Assembly (NCBI GenBank): GCA_024742875.1
Contig: JANSXP010000051.1
Location: 1-55,175 of the forward strand
Length of the DNA: 55,175 nucleotides
Direction: 5' to 3'
DNA from: Planctomycetaceae bacterium
GTDB taxonomy: Bacteria; Planctomycetota; Planctomycetia; Planctomycetales; Planctomycetaceae
The notes below the pieces were generated by a model. It saw nothing but the letters and a program-made list of their open reading frames with translations, had not been told where the DNA came from and searched no databases. Shown in pieces: positions 21,401 through 39,011 of the stretch. Made by a program: the position numbers and the translations under genes. Numbering within the stretch: the stretch's first letter is position 1; every line of letters starts with the position of its first letter.

Positions 21401-21575
21401 AAAGCAGGGCGAAGCTGACGGCACGCAGCACCCAGCGATGCTTTCCCGGACTTTCGTTCTCTTTCTCCAAAGTCCGTTTTCCCTGCTCTTCGTATGTGGG
21501 GCTGCCTGTAGCGGGGCCTGCGTGAAGCCGATTTCCGTCACCTGATGAGGATAGCACACCGTCAGACGACGGCAC
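18468..21575 (-). CDS. Heparinase II/III-like polysaccharide lyase with TIG-type domains
   Basis: A 1035-residue membrane-anchored or exported protein. A charged N-terminus is followed by one TM helix (residues about 48-66, LRAVSFALLLLLLVVW). A beta-rich region follows (about 100-310) and one or two IPT/TIG-like repeats (PPRITDVRSRDHSSIQIAGSGL; EISRHGELVRLKGSQL). An alpha-helical toroid comes next (ITWGMVAAVYDCLFDSLSAED; NPSNTVAISNSGGGL; DGGYIEGTLYWNFAMAEYVRF) and a C-terminal beta-sandwich (GDWLLIDPGYFLPEAKHHSI), the layout of heparinase II/III lyases. Likely degrades uronate-containing glycans. It starts 23 bases after the RND pump stop, so it may belong to the same transcript. Confidence 0.72.
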   Translation of the reverse strand: MPSSDGVLSSSGDGNRLHAGPATGSPTYEEQGKRTLEKENESPGKHRWVLRAVSFALLLLLLVVWCNVEQAPTVAYPHWLQENFSQPASRCRWQITRDWRTRGISLETSGERPGIHVRARTTSSCQSPNDFAVADWPVDDRSFNLKFDVTVKTELQKYFEAGLAVALCSQPPSLMEADDLCVVVQVSYAGIGMAVWRGWFLSPEATQISQTTHDVDGLESVPWHMQFISDPRLSFNIARDNDVIRFDVSSSSLPELSLWHSEQYQLSSDENLHVRHIVVQRVPVKQKHVGYPNFNFDGRVTGFEGYCKDSPPPRITDVRSRDHSSIQIAGSGLQMLDHIRHGTDTPVIRSSSPTSIEAQLTDSDSPLMLRFASDNMTWTEQLPSPSAVRIGSLTPREISRHGELVRLKGSQLHKVNIVTIGGSRVAIVSRDEQAITFRAPKLKPGRHAVTLTTDNGATVRGLDLLVGRHPRLFWTDTSLIDRRRRLQSAEFDGYRAAIYKEARGGNLLAQTVLTAVQQDEGFRKTLLASVRSICRQRKAIEFDAITWGMVAAVYDCLFDSLSAEDRDLLLGYLEFTLECYRRTDADWFFNTQGNPSNTVAISNSGGGLVALVLLDTHPQARRLAERARRKLREFAQATIRPDGGYIEGTLYWNFAMAEYVRFMLAWENSRLPSTSPVVPALRSMPDYVNAVFDNDGYVLAFNDSQPLKTGLPVVAYLSRRYGHRRMGRLADHYINQGYPNSALTFLVRDSSPVNNNLPEAPGVILLPQTQLATFRSQTPAQPQSTLAIYGGSAPMSHHRQQDQGSVFYSVNGDWLLIDPGYFLPEAKHHSIPLINGAGPTAGISSRFTAFASHDNCSFLRMDLSDAYAAHPTSQDVQSVVRHILFHSGEFVIVDEVVTESGSFDLQQQFQFACPVEYSRNSNSVDLSVPQRKGVPATLSVAGRQWSVTIDGPRDFDGSWEFRKFAEAGTLSWHSVKLSRRQPSGSPSVWTLSLAEAPLKIEVGNDKIAGVFSDGLRFTIRKDSEGWIWDDAAPRG

Positions 21576-21598
21576 GCTGCATCTTTGGTTTCAGGCGA

Positions 21599-28397: not shown

Positions 28398-28706
28398 CTC
28401 GGCGTTCCTGCATGATGTGGCGGGAAAACGAACGCTATGGCAATTGGCGGCTGACTCCCAGATCAGTTTCCGGTCCGTGATCAGCGGCCCGGCACTGGCG
28501 GGGTTATGTCCGGTCCCCCGCTCCCCGGACGGCATCTGGCGAATTCTGAAAAAGTTGCCGCGATTGCTGAGCCATTCCGGTGCCGATTGCTGCATGTCCT
28601 GTTGGCGGCCAGACGTCACCTCCTCGACCGGTGATGATCGGCCGCCGGAATTCAGGATGACTCTGTCATTTCTGCATTCGCTGGCCGGACGATATCAGGA
28701 GGCGAA

Positions 28707-28742
28707 ATGCGTTCATCGCCATGTTCTTGTGTGGGGCAATAA
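28707..28742 (+). CDS. Possible 11-residue ORF with consensus ribosome-binding site
   Basis: AGGAGG at 28697-28702 lies 4 bases before ATG 28707, opening MRSSPCSCVGQ and TAA at 28740. A strong plus-strand terminator follows 44 bases later. There is no other plus-strand gene between 28398 and 28843, so this may mark a short transcript (small protein or sRNA). Very short, so speculative. Confidence 0.25.
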   Translation: MRSSPCSCVGQ

Positions 28743-28786
28743 CAGAAAACGTTTGATCGTGTTTCAACTCCCGATGCGATCCGGAT

Positions 28787-28817
28787 GGCCGCGGGCTTTT
28801 TGCCCGCGGCCTTTTTT
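28787..28817 (+). terminator. Strong rho-independent terminator, plus orientation
   Basis: Ten-base-pair perfect stem GGCCGCGGGC (28787-28796) and GCCCGCGGCC (28802-28811), loop of five T, then six T. The T-tract is on the plus strand, while both flanking genes are on the minus strand. Confidence 0.85.
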
Positions 28818-28843
28818 CTGTCCCGAACCGACACGACTTTGCT

Positions 28844-30073
28844 TTACTGCAGCTGCATGTCGATCTGCAGACGTCTGCCGCTGCGAATGATGTCGATCGG
28901 TACGGTCTCAGAGCGGACATAGTGAGATTCGACGTAGTAATGCAGGCCCAGCGAATCGGTTTCCAGGTCAACTCCCGGAATCCCGAGAATGATGTCGCCC
29001 GCCTGAATGCCGGCTGCAGTTGCCTGACGTGAGACCGACTCACCCTGACGAAACGCCAGCTGGTCGCGCTTCAATCCGAGTCCTTTTTTCTCGCCCGCTG
29101 AGAGATCATCACCACTCAGGCGGGACGACGCCCTCATGTGCTGCATTGACGCCCGCCAGCTGATGTCACCGCGTTTCCAGCCGTCCTGCAATTCGATGCG
29201 GGACGACATCACTCGGCTGTCGCGTTTCCAGCCCACGGTCACTGTGCCCTTTTGTCGCGCCTTGTCCAGGGCAAACTGGGCGTCGCCAAACGAGTGCATC
29301 GGAATTTCATTCAGCCGCTGCAGGATATCGCCGGCCTGCAATCCGGCTTTGGCGGCTGCAGAATCCGGCTCGACCGTTTCCACCACGTTGCCACGGTCCA
29401 CTTCCAGGCGAAAGCCGAGGTTCTCCGGCAGGGGGTAGCGAAACGCCATCGACGTGTCCCAGATGCCCAGATCCTCCAGTTCTCTGTTGAGAATCTCCCG
29501 CGCCTGATGACAGTGAATGCAGCGGCCACGAGCGGTGCCGATTTCCCGAATGTAAAACGGAGACTTCGTTTCCGCAGGGGCAAACTCGGGCTGTGCTGCC
29601 GCGTGCTGTTTTAAGACAGACTGCATGGTGTAACGCAGCCCGGCCGTACTCTGGCGCGTGTCCGGACTTTCCGCGTCGCGTCCGCCGTACCGCGCGTAGA
29701 TCTGCTCCTGACTGTCCAGAAAGAAGACCATGAATGTGAGGTCGTAGTCAAACTGGAATTTGTTCAGATCCGAGTCTTCGATTTGTGGCAGTCGGACGCG
29801 GACAAACTGATCAGCGATGTCTTTGATGGCTTCGAGACGAACAACCTGCTCGTCAAATTCTCGACAGTCTGTTCAGGGGACGCAGCGAAACACGAGCATC
29901 AGGGGTTTACGGGTGCGGGCGGCCTCGTCCAGCGCGTCGTCGTAGCTGGTCTTCCAGCCGTTGGCGGCGAGAGCCGGATCGTTGAATCGTCCGCGACCCC
30001 GCTGGGCAAAACTGTGGCTGCTGCCAGCAACCACGATGGTCAACAGGCCGATGGCGGCCGTCATGCGGTTCAT
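28844..30073 (-). CDS. Candidate exported selenoprotein: thioredoxin-like (CxxU) + CxxCH + two PDZ domains
   Basis: Read through one TGA (29875-29873), the frame from ATG 30073 (AGGGAAAG upstream) encodes 409 residues. Domains: signal peptide (1-24, to SHSFAQ); thioredoxin-like region with KPLMLVFRC64-V-P-U67-T-D-C70, then FDEQVVRLEAIKDIADQFV and FQFDYDLTFMVFFLDSQEQI; a c-type haem motif CIHCH at 185-189; PDZ at about 212-282 (SAAAKAGLQAGDILQRLNEI); PDZ at about 331-409 (TAAGIQAGDIILGI). The TGA replaces the second Cys of a CxxC, the classic site for selenocysteine. No SelA, SelB or tRNA-Sec gene is visible here. A Cys-to-stop mutation is the alternative; then 28844-29731 alone would be a PDZ fragment without signal peptide. 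Last gene of the cbb3 operon. Confidence 0.7.
29836..29875 (-). promoter_or_regulatory. UGA codon with candidate bacterial SECIS hairpin
   Basis: Reading the minus strand, UGA is at 29875-29873. Eighteen bases later GACGA (29854-29850) pairs perfectly with UCGUC (29840-29836) around the 9-base loop GCAGGUUGU. The loop begins 23 bases after UGA and has G at its first position. The published bacterial SECIS rules require a loop 16-37 bases after UGA with a G in the first two loop positions; this hairpin meets both. An alternative CGAGA/UCUCG pairing exists nearby. Confidence 0.5.
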
Positions 30074-30201
30074 AGAACTTTCCCTGAGCAATACTGGTTT
30101 CAGGCGTAAACGTACGAACGCCCGGATATTGCTCGCGGGAAATCGTCTTTTTTTCGTTATTCCCACAAAGGCACACAGCCTGCGCCCACGGCGCGGGCAG
30201 C

Positions 30202-30675
30202 TTACGGCAGGCGGCAGCACCGCCGCGACTGCAGTTGACCGCCCAGAAAATGGCATTCGACCCACGACTGAGTGCTGTTTTCCCAGCGATAGACGTCCAC
30301 TGCAGGGGCGCGATCCGATGGCAATGGCTGCGACCGGTGCGCTGGCTGCTGCCATTCTGCCGCGCTGGTGCGTCGTCCGGCGAATCCGAGTCGATCGTTG
30401 ACCTGTGCCAGTGTGAGGCCTGGTTGCAGTGTGTCAAATTCTGCCTGCGTCACGAGGCCCCAGGCATAGGTGCGATAGGCGAAGAACAGGCCCACGAAGA
30501 ACAGCAGTCCGCACGTTAAGCCCAGCCACTCGACGCTCCACCACCGCTGATCGGCGTTAGGGTGTGCGGTACCTGAATCAGCCGGCGGTTCGGGCGGTCC
30601 GGATTCGTGTGTGTGCGGCGGCGACACATTTGTGCCATCACGAACCACTGCGGGGTCGGTCAGTCGCGTACTCAT
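30202..30675 (-). CDS. Membrane-anchored protein with SmpA/OmlA-like domain
   Basis: A 157-residue protein from ATG 30675, which overlaps the previous stop (ATGA). A proline/histidine-rich N-terminus of 40 residues precedes one TM helix (LGLTCGLLFFVGLFFAYRTYAW). The rest (FDTLQPGLTLAQVNDRLGFAG, then VDVYRWENSTQSWVECHFLG) has the GMT-x-xxV-xxxLG start and following strands of the small BLIP-like/SmpA fold. Such domains bind partner proteins in the envelope. Located in the oxidase operon, so it may help assemble or tether the complex. Function inferred only from context. Confidence 0.62.
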   Translation of the reverse strand: MSTRLTDPAVVRDGTNVSPPHTHESGPPEPPADSGTAHPNADQRWWSVEWLGLTCGLLFFVGLFFAYRTYAWGLVTQAEFDTLQPGLTLAQVNDRLGFAGRRTSAAEWQQPAHRSQPLPSDRAPAVDVYRWENSTQSWVECHFLGGQLQSRRCCRLP

Positions 30676-31199
30676 GGCAGTACGATCATCCATTGTGCGA
30701 TGCCAATCACGGTCGCTCCGCCGAGCAGCAATCCGATCAGAAGCCCCACCCCGTAAATCGTACGCAGGCCATCATCCAGTACCGCGTCTGTTCGCAGAAT
30801 GCGTCGCGTGAGCACGCTGCACACCCATGACCAGTGGAGCATCACGTGGACCAGAACGCCCAGGCCCAGTATAGCAATCAGCGTGAACTGCAGACTGCAC
30901 CAATGCCCGTAGCTTCCGCCCCAAAGTGTCACGCCGCGGGCTGCAACCCCCGGCGGAAAGACAAACTGCACTATGACGGCCGTCAGGCACAGCAGAACAA
31001 ACAGTATGCCCAGGACAGCGTCCAGCCAGAAGTTGATCAGCGTTCGTGAGACGCGTTTGCGGACAGTGCCGGAACGGGACGATGGGCGGGCGACGGAAAG
31101 CTCGTCTGCGCGATCCGGCGGATGCGGCAGGGCCACCCGGGAGTTGTCGGCGTGCGGGTCTTCGTGTCCTGACCTGTCGGCGGAGCCTGCGGCAATCAT
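30672..31199 (-). CDS. DUF4405-type membrane protein
   Basis: A 175-residue protein with four TM helices: INFWLDAVLGILFVLLCLTAVIV, CSLQFTLIAILGLGVLVHVMLHWSWV, and a final pair (GVGLLIGLLLGGATVIGI...). The HVMLHW histidines in the second helix match DUF4405, a family resembling the cytochrome b561/FdnI haem-binding bundle, so it may carry haem b and take part in quinone-linked electron transfer. The first 50 residues are soluble and low complexity. It overlaps both neighbours by 4 bases, placing it inside the cbb3 operon. Confidence 0.7.
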   Translation of the reverse strand: MIAAGSADRSGHEDPHADNSRVALPHPPDRADELSVARPSSRSGTVRKRVSRTLINFWLDAVLGILFVLLCLTAVIVQFVFPPGVAARGVTLWGGSYGHWCSLQFTLIAILGLGVLVHVMLHWSWVCSVLTRRILRTDAVLDDGLRTIYGVGLLIGLLLGGATVIGIAQWMIVLP

Positions 31200-31954
31200 G
31201 GCGCTGTCTCAGTTGTTTCAGCAGAGGTGGAGCAAAACGGACAGCTGTCCTGAACAGACTGTCCGTCGGTGCGATCAGGAAATGCAAATGCGATGCCACG
31301 GCCGGCGGTCAGCAATCCTGTGATCACAACACAAACCGCGGCCACCCTCATCAGCCGCTGACGCAGCGACAGCGAAGCCAGGGAAAAACCGGCGCCCGTC
31401 AGCAGCATGACGGGCATTGTTCCCAGGCCGAATGTGGTCATGATCAGAGGGCCCTGCCACACGCTCCCTGATGCGGCGGCCAGCGCCAGAAACGTGTAGA
31501 CCAGACCGCAGGGCAGAAAGCCCGTGGCGATGCCGGCGATGAATGTGCCTGTGGCCGAACCACCCTGCACAAATCGTCCCAGAACGCTGGCCGTCAGACA
31601 GCCCTGCTGTGGCCTGACGGAACGTCGGAACACTCCGGCCGAAATCAGTCCCTGAATGATCAGCGCCAGCCCGGCCACAATGGCGAAAACGGCCTGGATG
31701 CTGACCACCTCGGCCTGCGAACGGGCAAACGCGGACTCCGACAGCCGCTCGCCAGCGAAGGCCGCCAGCATCCCCAGAAACGCATAGGTAAATGTGCGAC
31801 CCGTGCTCCAGATCAGCTGTCGCGCGCAGGCAGAACGCAGCCGACTGGTGCCCAGGTTCATCGTGGCAGAGATTGCTCCACACATGCCGATGCAGTGTGC
31901 GGATCCCAGCACGCCGCTGACAAACACAAGTGGCAGCTCGTAGCCATTCATCAT
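31196..31954 (-). CDS. TauE/SafE (DsbD_2/UreH-like) membrane protein of cbb3 assembly locus
   Basis: A 252-residue protein from ATG 31954, overlapping the copper-ATPase stop. Six hydrophobic segments are visible; the family signature GSAHCIGMCGA lies in the first and GFLPCGLVYTFLALA in the middle, each with paired Cys/Pro as in the sulfite exporter TauE/SafE group linked to cytochrome-oxidase maturation. In many genomes this protein follows CcoI and precedes or replaces CcoS. It probably moves copper or reducing equivalents across the membrane during oxidase assembly. The soluble C-terminus has SCPFC, a possible metal or thiol site. Confidence 0.82.
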   Translation of the reverse strand: MMNGYELPLVFVSGVLGSAHCIGMCGAISATMNLGTSRLRSACARQLIWSTGRTFTYAFLGMLAAFAGERLSESAFARSQAEVVSIQAVFAIVAGLALIIQGLISAGVFRRSVRPQQGCLTASVLGRFVQGGSATGTFIAGIATGFLPCGLVYTFLALAAASGSVWQGPLIMTTFGLGTMPVMLLTGAGFSLASLSLRQRLMRVAAVCVVITGLLTAGRGIAFAFPDRTDGQSVQDSCPFCSTSAETTETAP

Positions 31955-34251
31955 GACAGACACTCCCGGGGCTGTGCCTTCAACATTGTCTGTTCTGTCG
32001 GTGGCGTTTGTTGTGAGATCGACTGGCCGGATGCATACGCAGGCCACTCATCCCGCAGCAGTCGCAGGGAGTTGGAGATCACCACCAGACTACTGAAGAT
32101 CATCAAAGCGGCGGCAAACGCGGGATTCAGCGACCCGCTGGCGGCGGCGACGATTCCCGCCGCATTGTAGGAAAAGGCCCACCACAGATTCTGTCGGATG
32201 ATGTGACGCGTCCGTCTGGCATGCCGAATGGCCCAGGGGATGTGAGTCAGGTTGTCACTGAGGATGCACACCTGCGCGGCGTCACGCGAGATGTCCGCAC
32301 CACAACCTGGTGCGATACCCACGTGGCTGGTGGCCAGCGCAGGCGCATCGTTAATGCCATCTCCCACCATGACAGTCCTGAGCCCCTGTGCCTGCAGCCG
32401 ACGGACGTGTTCCACCTTCTGTTGCGGTGACAGCTGGCTGTGTATGACGGTGCCTGTCCGTGGCAGCTGCTCACGCAGGAATTGGCCGCGCGCCTCGCGA
32501 TCTCCCGTGAGAATCCGGACGTGACCGACCAGAGATTCGGTCTGGGCGATGGCGTCAGCCGCTTCGGGTCGCAGTGTCTCAGACACCAGAAAGCCGCACA
32601 GCGGTCGGCCATTCACAGAGTACAGAACAATGCTCGCCGCCTGCTCATCGGCCGCCATCCGCAGCCGATCCAGCGGCACGCGTGTCGACAGCGGAACGTG
32701 TGTGCTGTTCTGCGATGCCGGGCCATTCGCTGCACGCGTGGGACAGTGCACACACAGGTTCGGTTCCCGGCACTCACTCGCGGCATTCTGACTGCAGCAG
32801 GCAAACGCCAGACTGCCCAGGCGAAACGTTTTTTCGCCGTGGTTGAGCTCAATGCCCCCTCCGGCGACGGTCGCCGGTCGGACACTGGTCTCCACGGTGG
32901 TCGCGTGGGACGCTTCAAACTCAACCTCGTCGAAGTAGGCGACGATGGCTCGGGAGAATGGGTGGCTGGAAGAATCCGCCAGCAGATGGATCGTGGCCAG
33001 ATCTGTTTCGGACAGTTCGTCAAACGTGGCCAGTTGCAGGATTTGGGGAGAGCCAGTGGTCAGTGTGCCTGTCTTGTCAAAGCACACAGCGCCTGCGTCG
33101 GCCAGCTTTTCGATGGCCTCTGCGCTGCGAAACAGCACCTGGTGTCGCGCCGCCGTGGACAGTGACGTCCAGACGGCCAGAGGTGTCGCCAGTCCCAAAG
33201 CGCACGGGCAGGCGATTAGCAATACCGCCAAAGCGGCGTGAATGGCGTTCGGCAGTCCGCCGGACAGGTGGATCAGGAACGTCAGGATCGAAATGGCGGC
33301 CACCAGCGGCAGAAACCAGCGCGTGATGCGTTCGGTCAGTCGCTGGTAGTGCCCCTGGGAATCGCGGGCATCCTGCAGTGTCTGCAGCAACTTACCAAAT
33401 GTGCCTTCCCGATACTTTGCCGTCGCACGAAGCTGAATGTCGCCTTCAATATTGACGGTGCCGGCCAGCAGGCGATCGCCCGGCTGTTTTTCGCACGGCA
33501 CACTCTCTCCGGTAAAAACCTGCTCGTCCACACACGTGCGGCCACCCAGCAGAATTCCATCGACCGGCAGGCGTGCACCAGCACGAACCCGCAGCAGATC
33601 ACCGTTTTGGATGTGCTGCGAGGAAATGGTTTGTTCTATCGTGTGATTGCCATTCGCCGTCAGTCTTATCGCTTCGGTCGGCAGCAGATCGTCCAGCTGA
33701 TCCAGAGCACGCGTGGCCTGCTGACGTCCGGCCGCTTCGATCCATCGGCCCAGAGTCATCATCACCAGCACCATAGCGCCGACTTCAAAATAGATCGGGC
33801 CGGCGTCGGCCAGCAGACTGACGGTGGACGTGACAAATGCGGCGGCCACGGCCAGCAGAATCAGGGCGTCGGTCGAAAACCGCCGCTGCCGAATGCTGTC
33901 GGCGCAGTTCTGCACAAGCGGCGTTCCGAGAAGCAGCAGCACGGGTATTGCCAGCAGCAAGCTCAGCCAGCGGAAGACGGCGTACAGCGTCAGCTGAAAT
34001 GGGTCAGGATTGACATCGTAGACGTCCAGTGACCACATCGTCATGGTGAACGCCATCAGGTTCATCGTGAAGAAGACGGCCAGCCCCAGGCGAATCACAG
34101 TCCACTGTACGCCACCGTCGTCGTGCCGCTCGCGGACAACGGCATGCGCAAACCGGCAGCCGTAGCAGCAATACGCTTCTGCCTGATCACTTGCGGTCAC
34201 CGGCAGGTCGCAGTACAGGCAGCGTGCCTGAGAGCTGTGTGGGCTGTCCAT
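31951..34251 (-). CDS. ccoI: CcoI/FixI-type copper P1B-ATPase
   Basis: A 766-residue heavy-metal ATPase. The N-terminus has CxxC (C11, C14) and a YCCYGC cluster, typical of the CcoI subgroup and unlike plain CopA. Catalytic motifs are in order: CPCALGLATP in the metal-transport helix, DKTGTLTTG (phosphorylated Asp) and MVGDGINDAPAL. An extra Cys-rich insertion (CREPNLCVHC) lies in the nucleotide-binding part. CcoI supplies copper for the CuB centre of cbb3 oxidase. It is 48 bases after the small protein gene and overlaps the next gene by 4 bases. Confidence 0.92.
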   Translation of the reverse strand: MDSPHSSQARCLYCDLPVTASDQAEAYCCYGCRFAHAVVRERHDDGGVQWTVIRLGLAVFFTMNLMAFTMTMWSLDVYDVNPDPFQLTLYAVFRWLSLLLAIPVLLLLGTPLVQNCADSIRQRRFSTDALILLAVAAAFVTSTVSLLADAGPIYFEVGAMVLVMMTLGRWIEAAGRQQATRALDQLDDLLPTEAIRLTANGNHTIEQTISSQHIQNGDLLRVRAGARLPVDGILLGGRTCVDEQVFTGESVPCEKQPGDRLLAGTVNIEGDIQLRATAKYREGTFGKLLQTLQDARDSQGHYQRLTERITRWFLPLVAAISILTFLIHLSGGLPNAIHAALAVLLIACPCALGLATPLAVWTSLSTAARHQVLFRSAEAIEKLADAGAVCFDKTGTLTTGSPQILQLATFDELSETDLATIHLLADSSSHPFSRAIVAYFDEVEFEASHATTVETSVRPATVAGGGIELNHGEKTFRLGSLAFACCSQNAASECREPNLCVHCPTRAANGPASQNSTHVPLSTRVPLDRLRMAADEQAASIVLYSVNGRPLCGFLVSETLRPEAADAIAQTESLVGHVRILTGDREARGQFLREQLPRTGTVIHSQLSPQQKVEHVRRLQAQGLRTVMVGDGINDAPALATSHVGIAPGCGADISRDAAQVCILSDNLTHIPWAIRHARRTRHIIRQNLWWAFSYNAAGIVAAASGSLNPAFAAALMIFSSLVVISNSLRLLRDEWPAYASGQSISQQTPPTEQTMLKAQPRECLS

Positions 34252-34299
34252 AATCTTTCAACTCGAAGTATGAATCACAGCGGGCCTCAGGCCACGTGT

Positions 34300-34494
34300 T
34301 CAGGGAGGGGAAATCAACTCAATCTGCATTGCGGGGAAGAAGTACGTGATGATGTAGTAAACCGTGAATATCCAGAAGCCGATCCAGATCAGGCGGATGT
34401 ACCACGGGATCACATTGCCGCGATAATGGTGAAAGTGGTGCTCTGTTTCCGGAGATGGCTGCTCCACAGAGTCTTCATTGGTGACTTCAATCAT
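34300..34494 (-). CDS. Small single-TM protein of the cbb3 operon
   Basis: A 64-residue protein: acidic N-terminus, HHFHHYRGNVIPW, then one TM helix (LIWIGFWIFTVYYIITYFF) and a short polar end. The His-rich segment followed by P-W-Y at the membrane border resembles the small subunit positions (CcoQ or the N-terminus of CcoP) in other cbb3 operons, but the sequence is not diagnostic. Overlaps the preceding gene by 4 bases. Probably a small oxidase subunit or assembly factor. Confidence 0.65.
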   Translation of the reverse strand: MIEVTNEDSVEQPSPETEHHFHHYRGNVIPWYIRLIWIGFWIFTVYYIITYFFPAMQIELISPP

Positions 34495-34889
34495 GACTTT
34501 CCTTTACCGCACAGCTCGTCGAGCGCTGCTTCGTTTTCCAGCATCGTGTGTTTGGGGAGTTCGAGGTCGGCAAACATGCCGTTGACAGCAGCCCACAGCA
34601 GGAGAAAGAAAAATCCGAGACTGGCGAACAGATAGTTCACGACCGGCGTGATGGCGAAGCCACCGTCAGGGTCTCCCTGTGTGAGGTGAATGAGCTCCAG
34701 AAACTTCATGACAAAACCAGCCATGCTGGGGATCAGAATGACCACGCCAAACACGATAGTGACGATCCATGCCACGCTGCGCTGCCGGATTTGCTGCGGT
34801 GATCGCGGCGGCGGGGCGGATGCGTGGGCGTGGGCGTGGGCCGCGGGGTTTGCGGCGGACTCTGAAGGATCACGAAGGGGCTCGCTCAT
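34491..34889 (-). CDS. Membrane protein of the cbb3 operon, two TM helices
   Basis: A 132-residue protein with a low-complexity His/Ala/Pro N-terminus (PAAHAHAHASAPPP), TM1 (SVAWIVTIVFGVVILIPSMAG), and TM2 (VNYLFASLGFFFLLLWAAVNG), ending in a charged tail with ELPKHTMLENEAALDELCGK. No named family. It overlaps CcoO by 4 bases and the following small protein by 4 bases, so translation is tightly coupled. The HAHAHAH stretch could bind copper transiently, which is speculation. Confidence 0.72.
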   Translation of the reverse strand: MSEPLRDPSESAANPAAHAHAHASAPPPRSPQQIRQRSVAWIVTIVFGVVILIPSMAGFVMKFLELIHLTQGDPDGGFAITPVVNYLFASLGFFFLLLWAAVNGMFADLELPKHTMLENEAALDELCGKGKS

Positions 34890-35593
34890 GGCTGTGACTC
34901 CTGACGGTCGACTTCGCTTTTCTGCGCAGGTGCGAAGGAAGGTTCGTACTGTTCATACCACGGATAACTTTCCTGCCATGAGCCGAGCCACTGCACGTAT
35001 GTGATGATGGCCAGTCCGCGGCGGTTTGGCTGATCGGGCGATCCTTCAAAAAACCACGGGTATTCGGGCATGGGGGAGTCCTGCGAGAGTGTCTTGGGGC
35101 GGAAAAAGTGCACGGCGTGCCAGTCGTTGCTGCGACGTCCGCCTTCCCGGCTCAGGTCCGGGCCCACCCGACGAGTGCCAAACATCACCGGGCGGTTCAG
35201 TTCGTTCTGGTATTCCCATGACTCGGCGACCGGTCCCCATCGCTGTTCTTCGTTGGACACCGGTCGGACGAACTGACTGTGGCAGTGCCAGCAGCCTTCG
35301 CCGACATAGATTTTGTGGCCTTCCCGCAGCGCCGTGGCGGTGGTCTCGTTCCACCATGCGTCGTCTTCGGCCGTTCCCCCGGGCGGTTCTCCGTACGCCG
35401 AGTTGAACGAGTCCGGATACCGTCTGGCCAGATCCTCAAACTGAAACCGCAGGTTGGCGTTGACCAGTTCTTCCACCGTCTGTTCGGGCAGATCGTCGTA
35501 CATCAGGGCAGGCACGACAGCGTTGGAAACGAAGGCCAGCGCGAAAAAACCGATGCCGGCGATCCAGAGAATTCCTGCTTTGCTTTCAAACAT
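34886..35593 (-). CDS. ccoO: cbb3-type cytochrome c oxidase monohaem subunit
   Basis: A 235-residue subunit II of cbb3 oxidase. An N-terminal TM anchor (ILWIAGIGFFALAFVSNAVV) is followed by the haem c site C101-W-H-C104-H105 in YVGEGCWHCHSQFVRP, a family signature. The segment RRVGPDLSREGGRRSNDWH and the distal Met in QDSPMPEYPW complete the CcoO pattern. It passes electrons to the haem b/CuB site in CcoN. Lies 54 bases downstream of ccoN. A standard-length CcoP is not seen; the separate dihaem lipoprotein at 37911 may replace it. Confidence 0.92.
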   Translation of the reverse strand: MFESKAGILWIAGIGFFALAFVSNAVVPALMYDDLPEQTVEELVNANLRFQFEDLARRYPDSFNSAYGEPPGGTAEDDAWWNETTATALREGHKIYVGEGCWHCHSQFVRPVSNEEQRWGPVAESWEYQNELNRPVMFGTRRVGPDLSREGGRRSNDWHAVHFFRPKTLSQDSPMPEYPWFFEGSPDQPNRRGLAIITYVQWLGSWQESYPWYEQYEPSFAPAQKSEVDRQESQP

Positions 35594-35647
35594 TGGGGCA
35601 CAGCTTTACTGAGAAAGATTTGAGAATGTGCGACAGCAGGTGCTGCA

Positions 35648-37087
35648 TCAGGCTGTTGTCGGAGAGGGGCCCGCCGCTGCAGCCTCTGGCTGTTCCGGCA
35701 CACAGGTCCACGTCTTGTAAATGTTCCAGATGAAGGCGAGCAGACCGCCAAACATGCTCAGGCCGGCGATGACGCGAATGACCCAGAACGGATGGGAAAT
35801 TTCCACGGAGGCATCCCAGGGTTCGAGTGCGGCCCACGACCAGCCCTGAAACAGCCCCAGCAAAATCAGGTCGGCCGCCATCACGGCAATGCCCACCGTT
35901 GAGAGCCAGTAGTGCCATTCACAGGCCTTCAGGCTGTACCAGGGACGATTCAGAAGCCGTGGGAACAGATAGGTCATCGCGCCCATGATCCACACGGTGA
36001 ACACCCCAAACATGACCATGTGCGCATGTCCCACCACCCAGTCCGTAAAGTGAATGATCTTCTGGAACGTCAGCGTCACCTGAAACGAGCACTGCAGGCA
36101 CGTGAGGAAGTAGAAGATCATGCCCGTGTAGAACCAGCGGATGGGCAGGTTTGTTTTCACTGCCTGACCGTCCCCCCAGATCGTGCCAAAGAAGTTGACA
36201 ACCACCGTCGTGACAACAAGTTCCACGGCGATGGTGGACACGATGGCTCCGTACTGCAGAAACATGGGAATCGGCGTATACAGAAAATGGTGGATGCCCT
36301 GCAGCGGATAAAAGAAGGCCAGCCCCCAGAATCCGACGAGCGACAGTCCGTGACTCCAGATCGGTTTTTTCAGGATGATGGGCACAAAGTAGTACATCAT
36401 TCCCCAGCCGAGCGGCGTCACAAACAGGCCGACCAGGTCATGGATAAACAGGCCCCCCACAGCACCAGCGCTGGTGCCTGTGACAAAATACTCCGGCACA
36501 AAGTTGCCCATCGCATACGTCAGGAATGTCCAGACAAACATGGCCATGAAGTACCACAGCGTGACATAGATCGGCCCCTTCATTCGGGCAATCGGAGGCA
36601 TGAAGTTGACCGCCAGCAGCAGCAGTCCCAGCTGAGCGATGGGGTCGATCCAGACGGGCGTCTCGCCCCATTCCAGTCCCTGCGCTTCTCCCAGCAGCAG
36701 GCCGATGGCGGTGGCCAGAACGACGCCCTGCCAGGCAATATAGATGACCCACGACAGCCGCTTGTCCAAAACGGGATTGAGTGTCAGACGCGGGACAATC
36801 CAGTGCAGCGCGCCCAGAAATCCGTTGGCCAGAAAGCCGTAGGCAATGGCATTGGTGTGGAGCATTCGCCAGCGGCCCGGCGAAAACAGCTCGATGCCGC
36901 GCATGGGATTGTGGTCAATCAGCTGCAGTGCCATCAGGATGCCGGCGAGCATCGAGATCAGCAGAAACGTCAGCGCCGTGACGAAGTACAGCTTCACCAG
37001 CTTCAGGTCGACCAGTTCGTGCAGCGGCAGGATGGCCGTCTGAGCGGGCGGTGCAGGCGGTTCAGAAGAAACGATGGCTTCAGACAT
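35648..37087 (-). CDS. ccoN: cbb3-type cytochrome c oxidase catalytic subunit
   Basis: A 479-residue, 12-helix catalytic subunit. Ligands can be placed: low-spin haem His H77 (WRMLHTNAIAYG) and H356, high-spin haem His H354 (VVGHAHMVMFG), CuB His H216 (FIHDLVGLF) and H266/H267 (GIHHFLY). Tyr at 232-233 (GMMYYF) corresponds to the helix position of the cross-linked tyrosine in other cbb3 enzymes. It reduces oxygen at high affinity and pumps protons, so the operon serves low-oxygen respiration. A short linker of 66 bases separates it from the upstream membrane protein. Confidence 0.95.
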   Translation of the reverse strand: MSEAIVSSEPPAPPAQTAILPLHELVDLKLVKLYFVTALTFLLISMLAGILMALQLIDHNPMRGIELFSPGRWRMLHTNAIAYGFLANGFLGALHWIVPRLTLNPVLDKRLSWVIYIAWQGVVLATAIGLLLGEAQGLEWGETPVWIDPIAQLGLLLLAVNFMPPIARMKGPIYVTLWYFMAMFVWTFLTYAMGNFVPEYFVTGTSAGAVGGLFIHDLVGLFVTPLGWGMMYYFVPIILKKPIWSHGLSLVGFWGLAFFYPLQGIHHFLYTPIPMFLQYGAIVSTIAVELVVTTVVVNFFGTIWGDGQAVKTNLPIRWFYTGMIFYFLTCLQCSFQVTLTFQKIIHFTDWVVGHAHMVMFGVFTVWIMGAMTYLFPRLLNRPWYSLKACEWHYWLSTVGIAVMAADLILLGLFQGWSWAALEPWDASVEISHPFWVIRVIAGLSMFGGLLAFIWNIYKTWTCVPEQPEAAAAGPSPTTA

Positions 37088-37153
37088 GAGTCGATGGACT
37101 TTTCCAACAGGAGTTTGAGACGTGATACATCAGGCGGTGCGTCTGCGCTGGTG

Positions 37154-37813
37154 TCAGGAGGTCGCTTCCGTGGGCCGTCGGTACAGCTGAAACGCACCCA
37201 GCGGTGCCATCAGGGCCATCGTCCAGCCAAAGACCAGGTGAGTGGCCAGTGCGACCCACCACGGCATGTGTTCGCCGCTGGTGATCCAGCGTCCGCCAAA
37301 CAGCGCGGGCTGCAGCCAGGCAAGGATGCCGTAGAAATTGATGATCCAGACGGCCGTGGCCAGAGCGGACGCCCAGAGCAGACGCGTGGCGACCGACGTC
37401 TCAAGGGCGAAGCGACCAATGACCCAGTGGAACAGTACGCCCAGCACCATGCCGGTGCCGATATACAGGCAGCATCCCAGTGACAGGATCATGCCGTCGT
37501 CAATCACGAAACCGGTACCTTCCGCTGTCGACAGCGCGAGCGCTTTTTCTCCCAGCGGAAAAGTGAGATACACGCGGATGATTTCGAGCGGATGTTTGCC
37601 GGCCAGGGTGGCGCCCACAATGTTGAACAGCAGACTGGCCATCGCTGCGATGCCGCCAAACACAAATCCTACGGTGCCGTACCAGGTACCGTAGAAATTG
37701 TCGAGGTTCCACTGATCAGCCTCAGTGGCCCGCGACATCTCTGATTCCAGCGTGGCCACTTTCTGTTTGAGCGTGGCCAGTTCCAGCTTTTGTTCATCGA
37801 ATTCGGACGTCAT
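37154..37813 (-). CDS. Four-TM membrane protein upstream of ccoN
   Basis: A 219-residue protein with an N-terminal coiled coil (FDEQKLELATLKQKVATLES) and four to five hydrophobic helices (VGFVFGGIAAMASLLFNIVGA; MILSLGCCLYIGTGMVLGVLF; LLWASALATAVWIINFYGIL; ALATHLVFGWTMALMAPLGAF). Polar spots and His residues lie at helix borders, which could hold haem or contact CcoN, but no family motif is visible. Its strict position between the dihaem cytochrome and ccoN suggests a subunit or assembly factor of this oxidase type. Confidence 0.75.
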   Translation of the reverse strand: MTSEFDEQKLELATLKQKVATLESEMSRATEADQWNLDNFYGTWYGTVGFVFGGIAAMASLLFNIVGATLAGKHPLEIIRVYLTFPLGEKALALSTAEGTGFVIDDGMILSLGCCLYIGTGMVLGVLFHWVIGRFALETSVATRLLWASALATAVWIINFYGILAWLQPALFGGRWITSGEHMPWWVALATHLVFGWTMALMAPLGAFQLYRRPTEATS

Positions 37814-37910
37814 TTCAAATCACTCGTTGGTAGGATCCGGGAAGAACGACTCCGCCTGGCGGCGGCTGTTGGCAGCCCCTCTGGCGGTGGCGGGGATGCC
37901 TGCCTGTCTG

Positions 37911-39011
37911 TCATCCTTCGGGGGCTGCACCGCCCTCGCTGCCGGCGTTTGCTTTCTGCGCCCGTGCTGTATTGGCAAGCGTGTCGTAAGGTTTCATCAG
38001 TCCGGCCGGAATCTCTTCCTGATAGCGCCGCCGATTGGAGGTTTGCAGGACGAAGGCGACGAGGTTCCAGATGGTGTCTGGCTCACTGGCAAAGGCCGCT
38101 TTGAAACCCGGCATCGGCGTGCCGTTGATGCCGTTCATGATGCGGCGGTAAACGTCGATTGGCTGCTGTCCGCCCCGCAGCATGCCGGACGTGAGGTCGG
38201 CCGCCCGGGTCGGATAGCCCCAGGAGTCACTGCCGATATTGTCTTTGGTGTGCCCGCGGCCGTCGTCTCCATGACACTTGCTGCAGCCTTTGCTCAGGAA
38301 CGCTTCGCGGCCCAGCGCGGCCCGCTGTGCGGTCAGTTCCGGCTGTGGAGTCAGCGGCTGTGTGAGCGATGAGCCGGCCTGCTGCCACCGATTGACGACA
38401 TCCTCGATGAACTCCGGCACGTATTCGGGGTCGAGCTCTTCGGCCGCATCGGCCTCCATCGCCAGTTGAAACTGCAGTTCACCTCGCTGCGACAGCACCA
38501 TGACGTAATCGACCACCGCTTTGATGTCCTTCTCCGGCAGTCGATTGAAACGCGGCATGGAGGTACCCGTCACGCCAGTGTGAACCACGCGGATCAGGTC
38601 TTCCCGTCGAGGTCGGGCGCCGTAGGGGGTGGATGTAAATTTGAAAATCCCGCGTGTGTAGTCTCGGGGTCTGGGGTACAGGTGATCGGCCGCTTCCCCG
38701 TTGCCGTCACCATTCTCACCATGGCACTGCACACAGCGTTTCCTGTAGACGGCCTGTCCGTGTTTCAGGTGCAGTTGCTGTTTGAACGTGGGGTTTGGCT
38801 GCGTGACCAGTTGAGGCGTACTGGCAGTGCCGCTGTTTTCTGTAACCAGTTTGTTCAGTTCGTCCTGCAGCGCCGGATCCGGCAGCTCGGTAACCAGCTC
38901 ACTGGGCGTCCAGCGGGCTGGTTCACTGCGCTCACAGCCGGTGAGAGTCAGGCTGCTCATCAGCATGCAGGCACACATGAGCAACCCAGCCGTTTTTTCG
39001 TTGCCAGTCAT
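37911..39011 (-). CDS. Dihaem c-type cytochrome lipoprotein
   Basis: A 366-residue lipoprotein with signal peptide and lipobox (MSSLTLTGC26). Two class I cytochrome c domains: haem 1 at C93-V-Q-C96-H97 with distal region GTSMPRFN, and haem 2 at C243-S-K-C246-H247 with GTPMPGFKAAF. A Pro/Arg-rich stretch links them. Probably delivers electrons to the cbb3 oxidase and takes the place of CcoP, which also has two c-type haems. Lies 97 bases upstream of the membrane protein gene in the same direction. Confidence 0.9.
   Translation of the reverse strand: MTGNEKTAGLLMCACMLMSSLTLTGCERSEPARWTPSELVTELPDPALQDELNKLVTENSGTASTPQLVTQPNPTFKQQLHLKHGQAVYRKRCVQCHGENGDGNGEAADHLYPRPRDYTRGIFKFTSTPYGARPRREDLIRVVHTGVTGTSMPRFNRLPEKDIKAVVDYVMVLSQRGELQFQLAMEADAAEELDPEYVPEFIEDVVNRWQQAGSSLTQPLTPQPELTAQRAALGREAFLSKGCSKCHGDDGRGHTKDNIGSDSWGYPTRAADLTSGMLRGGQQPIDVYRRIMNGINGTPMPGFKAAFASEPDTIWNLVAFVLQTSNRRRYQEEIPAGLMKPYDTLANTARAQKANAGSEGGAAPEG

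Follow-up and report, generated by a model that had tools for sequence, protein, structure and literature searches.

The stretch of DNA analyzed here (the window) comprises 55,175 nucleotides from a Planctomycetaceae bacterium (GenBank assembly GCA_024742875.1, contig JANSXP010000051.1, positions 1 to 55,175). A long frame on its reverse strand is crossed by a single TGA, and the question is whether this codon marks a decayed gene or a site of selenocysteine (Sec) insertion and, if the latter, what kind of protein is made. A Sec-blind pipeline would call two fragments at this locus, so the case is one in which a real selenoprotein has to be separated from decay.

Reading frame and gene features

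Translation of positions 30073-28844 on the reverse strand gave one frame of 409 residues, running from an ATG at 30073 to a TAA at 28846-28844, with a sole internal stop. This stop, a TGA at 29875-29873, was embedded in R-C-V-P-(TGA)-T-D-C, and 342 codons were open 3' of it. Frame, coordinates and TGA were all as the initial annotation had given them. The following features were assigned:

28844..30073, reverse strand: coding sequence of a Trx7/PDZ (seleno)protein of family NF041199, 409 aa with the TGA read as Sec67
30005..30073, reverse strand: probable signal peptide, residues 1-23, ending in SHSFA ahead of Q (translation read by eye; low model confidence)
29882..29884, reverse strand: Cys64 codon, first Cys of CxxU; Sec in 41/147 homologues, always alongside Sec67
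29873..29875, reverse strand: TGA, Sec67; U in 101/147 and C in 46/147 non-redundant homologues
29864..29866, reverse strand: Cys70 codon, third position of CxxUxxC; Cys in 142/147
29836..29854, reverse strand: SECIS-like hairpin GACGAGCA-GGU-UGUUCGUC within the coding sequence (comparative pairing)
29714..29956, reverse strand: Thioredoxin_7 domain, residues 40-120 (Pfam PF13899, E 4e-15)
29507..29521, reverse strand: CIHCH, candidate haem c attachment site, residues 185-189 (motif conservation)
29192..29419, reverse strand: PDZ domain 1, residues 219-294 (Pfam PDZ_2, PF13180, E 2e-14)
28853..29077, reverse strand: PDZ domain 2, about residues 333-407 (profile and fold searches; limits by eye)

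Just beyond the gene end, at 28787-28811, lies a G+C-rich inverted repeat of 10 bp, accompanied by a run of T on the forward strand. A sigma-70 promoter scan of 28700-31300 found no promoter, and an Rfam scan of the window returned no family above the gathering score. Scanning the window for a TGA plus a hairpin gave 10 raw hits, including the Sec67 site; the others were unconvincing by eye. Elsewhere in the window, the TGA terminating an RND pump frame is followed by an 11-bp hairpin at about 21555-21585 (reverse strand), its loop about 31 bases away, and the frame stays open for 140 codons past that TGA; this hairpin is probably a terminator or due to chance.

Residue 67 across homologues

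Homologues were sought in 118 related genomes, of which 108 had matches, some of these PDZ-only. From the matches, 29 TGA-bearing rows (E 5e-46 or better, TGA as the only internal stop) and 44 of the stop-free rows were aligned; two weak TGA rows were left out, one at G062:C102 with an additional TAG and one at G026:C523 that covers the PDZ part only. In this 73-row set, the TGA aligned to codon 67 in all 29 TGA rows and residue 67 was Cys in the other 44, and every row had Cys or Sec at residue 64, Cys70 and the CxxCH. Among the matches listed, the closest homologues (42-53% identity) bear TGA. The match at G062:C102:204-1067 is split in two; its second piece is interrupted by a single TGA and a single TAG, and the copy is apparently a decayed family member.

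This set was enlarged with 48 of the 51 loci retrieved from named records (three short ones were omitted) and with a further 40 from a search across the phylum; 36 of these 40 have several TGAs. The resulting 161 rows were reduced to 147 by removal of 14 near-identical ones. The added sets are not random samples, as they were picked mostly for several TGAs or partly by a query with the hairpin-encoded peptide. Across the 147 non-redundant homologues, residue 67 was TGA in 101 and Cys in 46, with no other residue, so that Cys does occur at the position of the TGA. At residue 64, 106 homologues had Cys and 41 had U, the U being found solely where residue 67 was U too. Four loci (L142, L143, L144 and L146) had Cys-x-x-Sec, but their third Cys position was occupied by Glu or Asp. 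Relatives were also seen in records named Kiritimatiellaeota and Verrucomicrobia, in the Cys form (L150, L152) and in the TGA form (L147, L156).

A hairpin downstream of the TGA

The initial annotation saw a hairpin after the TGA, of the kind used in bacterial Sec insertion, with a G-first loop 23 bases away. The hairpin was found but the distance was revised: the A of AGGUU is separated from the TGA by 25 bases, and the GGU loop has its first G at base 27 after the TGA. Folding of the TGA and the following bases was unremarkable (z = -0.96), and the minimum-energy structure was another fold; the 45 bases after the TGA, with the TGA excluded, gave the 8-bp hairpin plus a further short stem (z -0.9). 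As single-sequence folding was unremarkable, the case for the hairpin rests on comparison.

Among the 29 TGA members, in which the hairpin sits at a constant spacing from the TGA, the eight pairs were formed in 93.1% of 232 cells, 23 cells were altered on both sides, and the covariation score was 0.353; each of these three values was reached by 0/500 shuffles, and sliding the hairpin partner dropped pairing to 25-57%. Two other statistics were not distinctive: the number of pairs with double-sided change (2) was equalled or beaten by 117/500 shuffles, and the number of further pair types (7) by 473/500. Two of the eight pairs never varied in these members. At least seven of the eight pairs were formed in 25/29 TGA members vs. 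0/44 Cys members (one Cys member has 6), the Cys members pairing in 79/352 cells at the hairpin positions. The GGU loop was likewise present in 29/29 TGA members vs. 9/44 Cys members, and the hairpin-encoded Gln76 in 29/29 vs. 5/44, a bias that is as expected if the RNA shape constrains the protein. Among the 40 further loci, at least seven of eight pairs were formed in this register in 28 and not in 12, which suggests a different or shifted hairpin in some lineages.

Selenocysteine machinery

All four components of the insertion machinery were present in the source genome: a tRNA-Sec (77.8 bits against a gathering score of 47; tRNA-SeC with anticodon tca in ARAGORN), SelB (334.8 bits), SelA (485.5 bits) and SelD (256.3 bits), the three proteins all being above cut-off. 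For the 118 genomes, split by hand counts into 23 with and 95 without a TGA member among the matches listed, a tRNA-Sec match was found in 20/23 vs. 43/95 (Fisher p 3e-4), or in 35/95 of the latter when hits near 50 bits were left aside (Fisher p 1e-5). Three TGA-bearing genomes (G015, G017 and G061) had no tRNA-Sec above cut-off, yet had SelA and SelD above cut-off; SelB was above cut-off in G017, which is 79% complete, and in G061, while the match in G015 spanned 133/581 positions. In two genomes with no TGA member among the matches listed (G008 and G011), no SelA or SelD match and no tRNA-Sec was found.

The SelD of the source genome (G000:C22:19695-20597) and those of G013, G017, G049 and G057 each lie in an open frame more than double the model length (741-778 codons), which suggests a fusion. 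The SelD match in G061 has an in-frame TGA inside.

Reading of the TGA

The TGA might be the real stop of a pseudogene, or a sequencing error in what is otherwise a normal Cys gene, given that a single base separates TGA from TGC and TGT, the codons for Cys, and that the genome is a draft assembly of 168 contigs. Decay or error of this kind would nevertheless have had to strike the same codon in 101/147 homologues from many genomes and again in a second copy of the gene in the same genome (G000:C152), and it is further opposed by the hairpin that covaries in TGA but not in Cys members, by the Sec machinery and by the 342 open codons after the TGA; we consider it very improbable. Equally little probability is given to readthrough of the UGA as another amino acid, or general suppression, with no part for selenium. 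UGA ends other genes, for example the RND pump frame at 21601-21599, and both the Cys at the aligned position and the presence of SelA, SelB, SelD and tRNA-Sec speak against it. Because the site is occupied by TGA or Cys only, the hairpin is found in TGA members and the Sec machinery is encoded in the genome, the gene was assigned to a selenoprotein, as the initial annotation had done, and Sec at residue 67 is, on the evidence of sequence comparison, almost certain.

Family membership

The protein was scored as a member of NCBIfam NF041199, 'Trx7/PDZ domain-containing (seleno)protein', with 434.1 bits vs. a cut-off of 300 and residues 39-408 aligned to profile positions 2-390 of 390. Members of the family have a Trx7 domain with either CxxU or CxxC ahead of the PDZ part, and the CVPU of the window gene fits this with no difference. 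All 47 aligned sequences, including that from the window, matched NF041199 at E 1e-20 or better. In a sample of the phylum, 124/392 genomes had a match at E 1e-30 or better, 110 of them above the cut-off, vs. 0/14 controls. As the family is already catalogued, the selenoprotein can no longer be called new. At least three other family members are encoded in the source genome: one with a TGA (G000:C152:130479-131687, in L047), and paralogues without an internal stop on C134 (L106) and C149.

In the parts of the literature available, a Trx7/PDZ family with motif CxxU and one Sec is entered in the table of a 2026 review (PMC13188914), and a PDZ protein with Thioredoxin_7 and CxxU in a 2022 review (PMC9312934). 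The corresponding passages of a 2008 and a 2021 paper describe a protein named 'MucD', also with CxxU; a SECIS was predicted for it in 2008, and the 2021 text gives it a PDZ fusion and further conserved Cys, as in the window protein. From the order of the lists and the domain names, we infer that NF041199, this 'MucD' and the review entries are one family.

Domains and fold

Pfam, profile and fold searches together supported a thioredoxin-like domain and two PDZ domains, in line with the architecture first proposed. Pfam called one PDZ domain; the second showed in profile searches, which matched DegP-like proteins in two stretches or in one long stretch, and in matches to tandem-PDZ folds. An AlphaFold model built from the 47 sequences had a mean pLDDT of 90.1 and a pTM of 0.85. 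When the whole model was searched with Foldseek, the top matches were DegP/DegQ and tandem-PDZ fragments; residues 38-213 (mean pLDDT 85.3) matched AGR2, DsbH-type and ER thioredoxin-like structures, and a profile search of the PDB with the thioredoxin part gave AGR2/AGR3/TXNDC12. By sequence and fold, AGR2/AGR3/TXNDC12 and DsbH-type folds are thus the closest solved relatives of the thioredoxin part, and the matches are confined to that part. AGR2/AGR3/TXNDC12 and DsbH-type proteins are not known to have Sec, a CxxCH haem or PDZ domains.

The CxxCH motif

C185, C188 and H189 were found in 147/147 homologues, H187 in 145/147 and His157, which might serve as a distal haem ligand, in 134/147. 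With a profile of the CxxCH region, a PDB search to E 10 gave five sequences; the best three were c-type cytochromes at weak values (E 0.0012, 0.0064 and 0.049), and the fifth was an octahaem cytochrome (E 4.8). These cytochrome matches may be driven by the CxxCH alone. No c-type cytochrome was among the best 50 of 1092 Foldseek matches of the thioredoxin-plus-CxxCH model, and no cytochrome domain was called by Pfam in the 409-residue protein. In c-type cytochromes, a helix begins at the second Cys of CxxCH, and in the structure model a helix starts at the same point. Two cytochrome c assembly proteins (PF01578) were above cut-off in the source genome. Of the haem site proposed at the outset, the motif is invariant (147/147 homologues), and haem attachment is plausible.

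Two known groups offered comparisons. In the passages available on the magnetochrome/PDZ proteins MamP and MamE, a small CxxCH haem site is joined to PDZ domains and no thioredoxin domain, such as the window protein has, is named (PMC3971196). The magnetochrome motif has a PH 5-9 residues ahead of the CxxCH according to the same source (PMC3971196); by eye, none was present at that distance in 27 aligned segments, including that of the window, and a magnetochrome identity was rejected. Sec in c-type cytochrome families is also described, in the part of the 2026 review available, for the ExtKL multihaem cytochrome and the octahaem tetrathionate reductase family; these are multihaem, and a Trx7/PDZ architecture is not stated for them there (PMC13188914).

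A selenoprotein in which the CxxCH holds no haem would use it as a second thiol pair, partner to the CxxU in a relay, or as a metal site of His187, His189 and perhaps His157. Such a role would account for the conservation of H187 (145/147), which haem attachment does not need, and would agree with the additional conserved Cys without clear function in the available text of the 2021 paper and with the lack of a Pfam cytochrome domain. Pulling the other way are the H189 right after the second Cys in 147/147, the c-type cytochromes as the best profile matches of the region and the helix from the second Cys in the model. We regard the non-haem role as a substantial minority possibility, and haem binding at the CxxCH, judged from the sequence, as moderately favored. 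The PDZ domains resemble those of DegP/DegQ, which, with the name MucD in the accessible parts of the 2008 and 2021 papers, would suggest a selenium-containing HtrA/DegP-type protease. A trypsin-like protease domain was sought by Pfam in the 409 residues and was absent, and the N-terminal part is thioredoxin-like; a protease is extremely improbable and, as no protease domain was found, the name MucD does not fit.

Forms with two selenocysteines

Sec at both residues 64 and 67 (UxxU) was found in 41/147 members of a set that was partly selected for multiple TGAs. Among the matches listed for NF041199 in the phylum sample, 150 rows were counted by hand, and 66 had two or more TGAs, 34 had one and 50 had none. 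In the multi-TGA rows that were checked, TGA was at both residues 64 and 67 in 36/36. Two in-frame TGAs nine bases apart were seen in L028 (G021), L083 (G076), L132, L138, L153, L154 and L155, and also in 36/40 of loci L158-L197. One locus (L157) was considered as a three-TGA Sec member and rejected, its second TGA being read from the alignment length as the normal gene end.

On a quick tree of the 147 rows (LG+G4, SH-aLRT only), the distribution of the Cys form required at least 5 changes at residue 67; for UxxU, 10 changes at residue 64 were needed, 8 of which were forced by well-supported branches. The 41/147 with UxxU differ from the one Sec given in the available 2026 table (PMC13188914). 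For the NF041199 family, no statement on haem or on UxxU was found in the literature passages available; from these, the invariant CxxCH and the frequent double-Sec forms look like under-described traits of the family.

Genomic neighborhood

The gene was placed by the initial annotation at the end of a cbb3 operon, and in the window (31196..39011) a DsbD_2 gene, a P-type ATPase gene and cbb3-type oxidase genes do lie upstream of it:

31196-32047, reverse strand: DsbD_2-domain protein (profile match)
31951-34251, reverse strand: heavy-metal P-type ATPase (profile match)
34886-35593, reverse strand: FixO/CcoO-like protein (Pfam above cut-off, NCBIfam ccoO below)
35648-37087, reverse strand: COX1/CcoN-like protein (Pfam above cut-off, NCBIfam ccoN below)
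37911-39011, reverse strand: CcoP-like cytochrome c (Pfam above cut-off, NCBIfam ccoP below)

Eleven window proteins were compared by tblastn with 71 loci around family members in 58 other groups, the flanks covering a few kilobases only and some contigs being short. None of the 71 loci was matched by the three oxidase subunits (CcoN-, CcoO- and CcoP-like), by the DsbD_2 protein or by the two small proteins encoded beside the selenoprotein gene. The P-type ATPase matched two, L107 (32% over 697 residues) and L054 (25% over 211), and TolC-like and RND-adaptor-like genes (names by eye) were found at one locus each. At L107:5129-7075, the ATPase-like gene adjoins a family member that is a close homologue of the window gene. 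The gene therefore follows cbb3-type oxidase genes here, but the link was absent from the 71 other loci and, since tblastn found no oxidase subunit near relatives, is not a family trait.

An earlier clustering of neighbors, which reported only clusters of three or more groups, was an unfair test of this link because the choice of the longest frame can displace true genes; a forward-strand frame at 35912-37483 is longer than the CcoN-like gene beneath it. Recurring neighbors in that clustering were DUF1501-like (9 groups) and sulfatase-like (by eye; 8 groups) genes, as raw counts with no background rate.

Proposed function and significance

The whole is probably best explained as an exported Sec protein of NF041199 with a probable c-haem and two PDZ domains. 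From the comparison and the genome content, the UGA of codon 67 would be decoded as selenocysteine by SelB and tRNA-Sec via the in-frame hairpin just downstream. The N-terminus, read by eye, suggests export. In the thioredoxin-like domain, the C-x-x-U-x-x-C would carry out selenol/thiol redox chemistry on periplasmic substrates, as the fold and the Sec/Cys-only pattern suggest. A c-type haem would most likely be attached covalently at the single CxxCH, where it would relay electrons between periplasmic carriers and the selenol site. The two PDZ domains may bind partner or substrate tails, or drive DegP-type assembly.

Electron exchange between the haem and the Sec site is put forward tentatively, as it appears from sequence to be rather less probable than the binding of haem. 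Still more speculative is the extension to the family, in which NF041199 proteins would be one-protein selenol-to-haem relays that couple disulfide/peroxide chemistry to periplasmic cytochromes, a single hairpin serving both UGAs of the UxxU forms. In the same reading, the relay would combine a mono-haem c site with steering by tandem PDZ domains, and both active-site Cys would have become Sec in many other planctomycetes.

In the parts of the two reviews available, the Trx7/PDZ family is listed in a table and no function is given for it (PMC13188914, PMC9312934). If the haem-type site is real, selenol chemistry would be tied directly to cytochromes beside a Sec thioredoxin fold. The UxxU forms pose the question of how one hairpin serves two close UGAs, and CxxC, CxxU and UxxU form a natural series in one fold in which the value of a second Sec may be asked.
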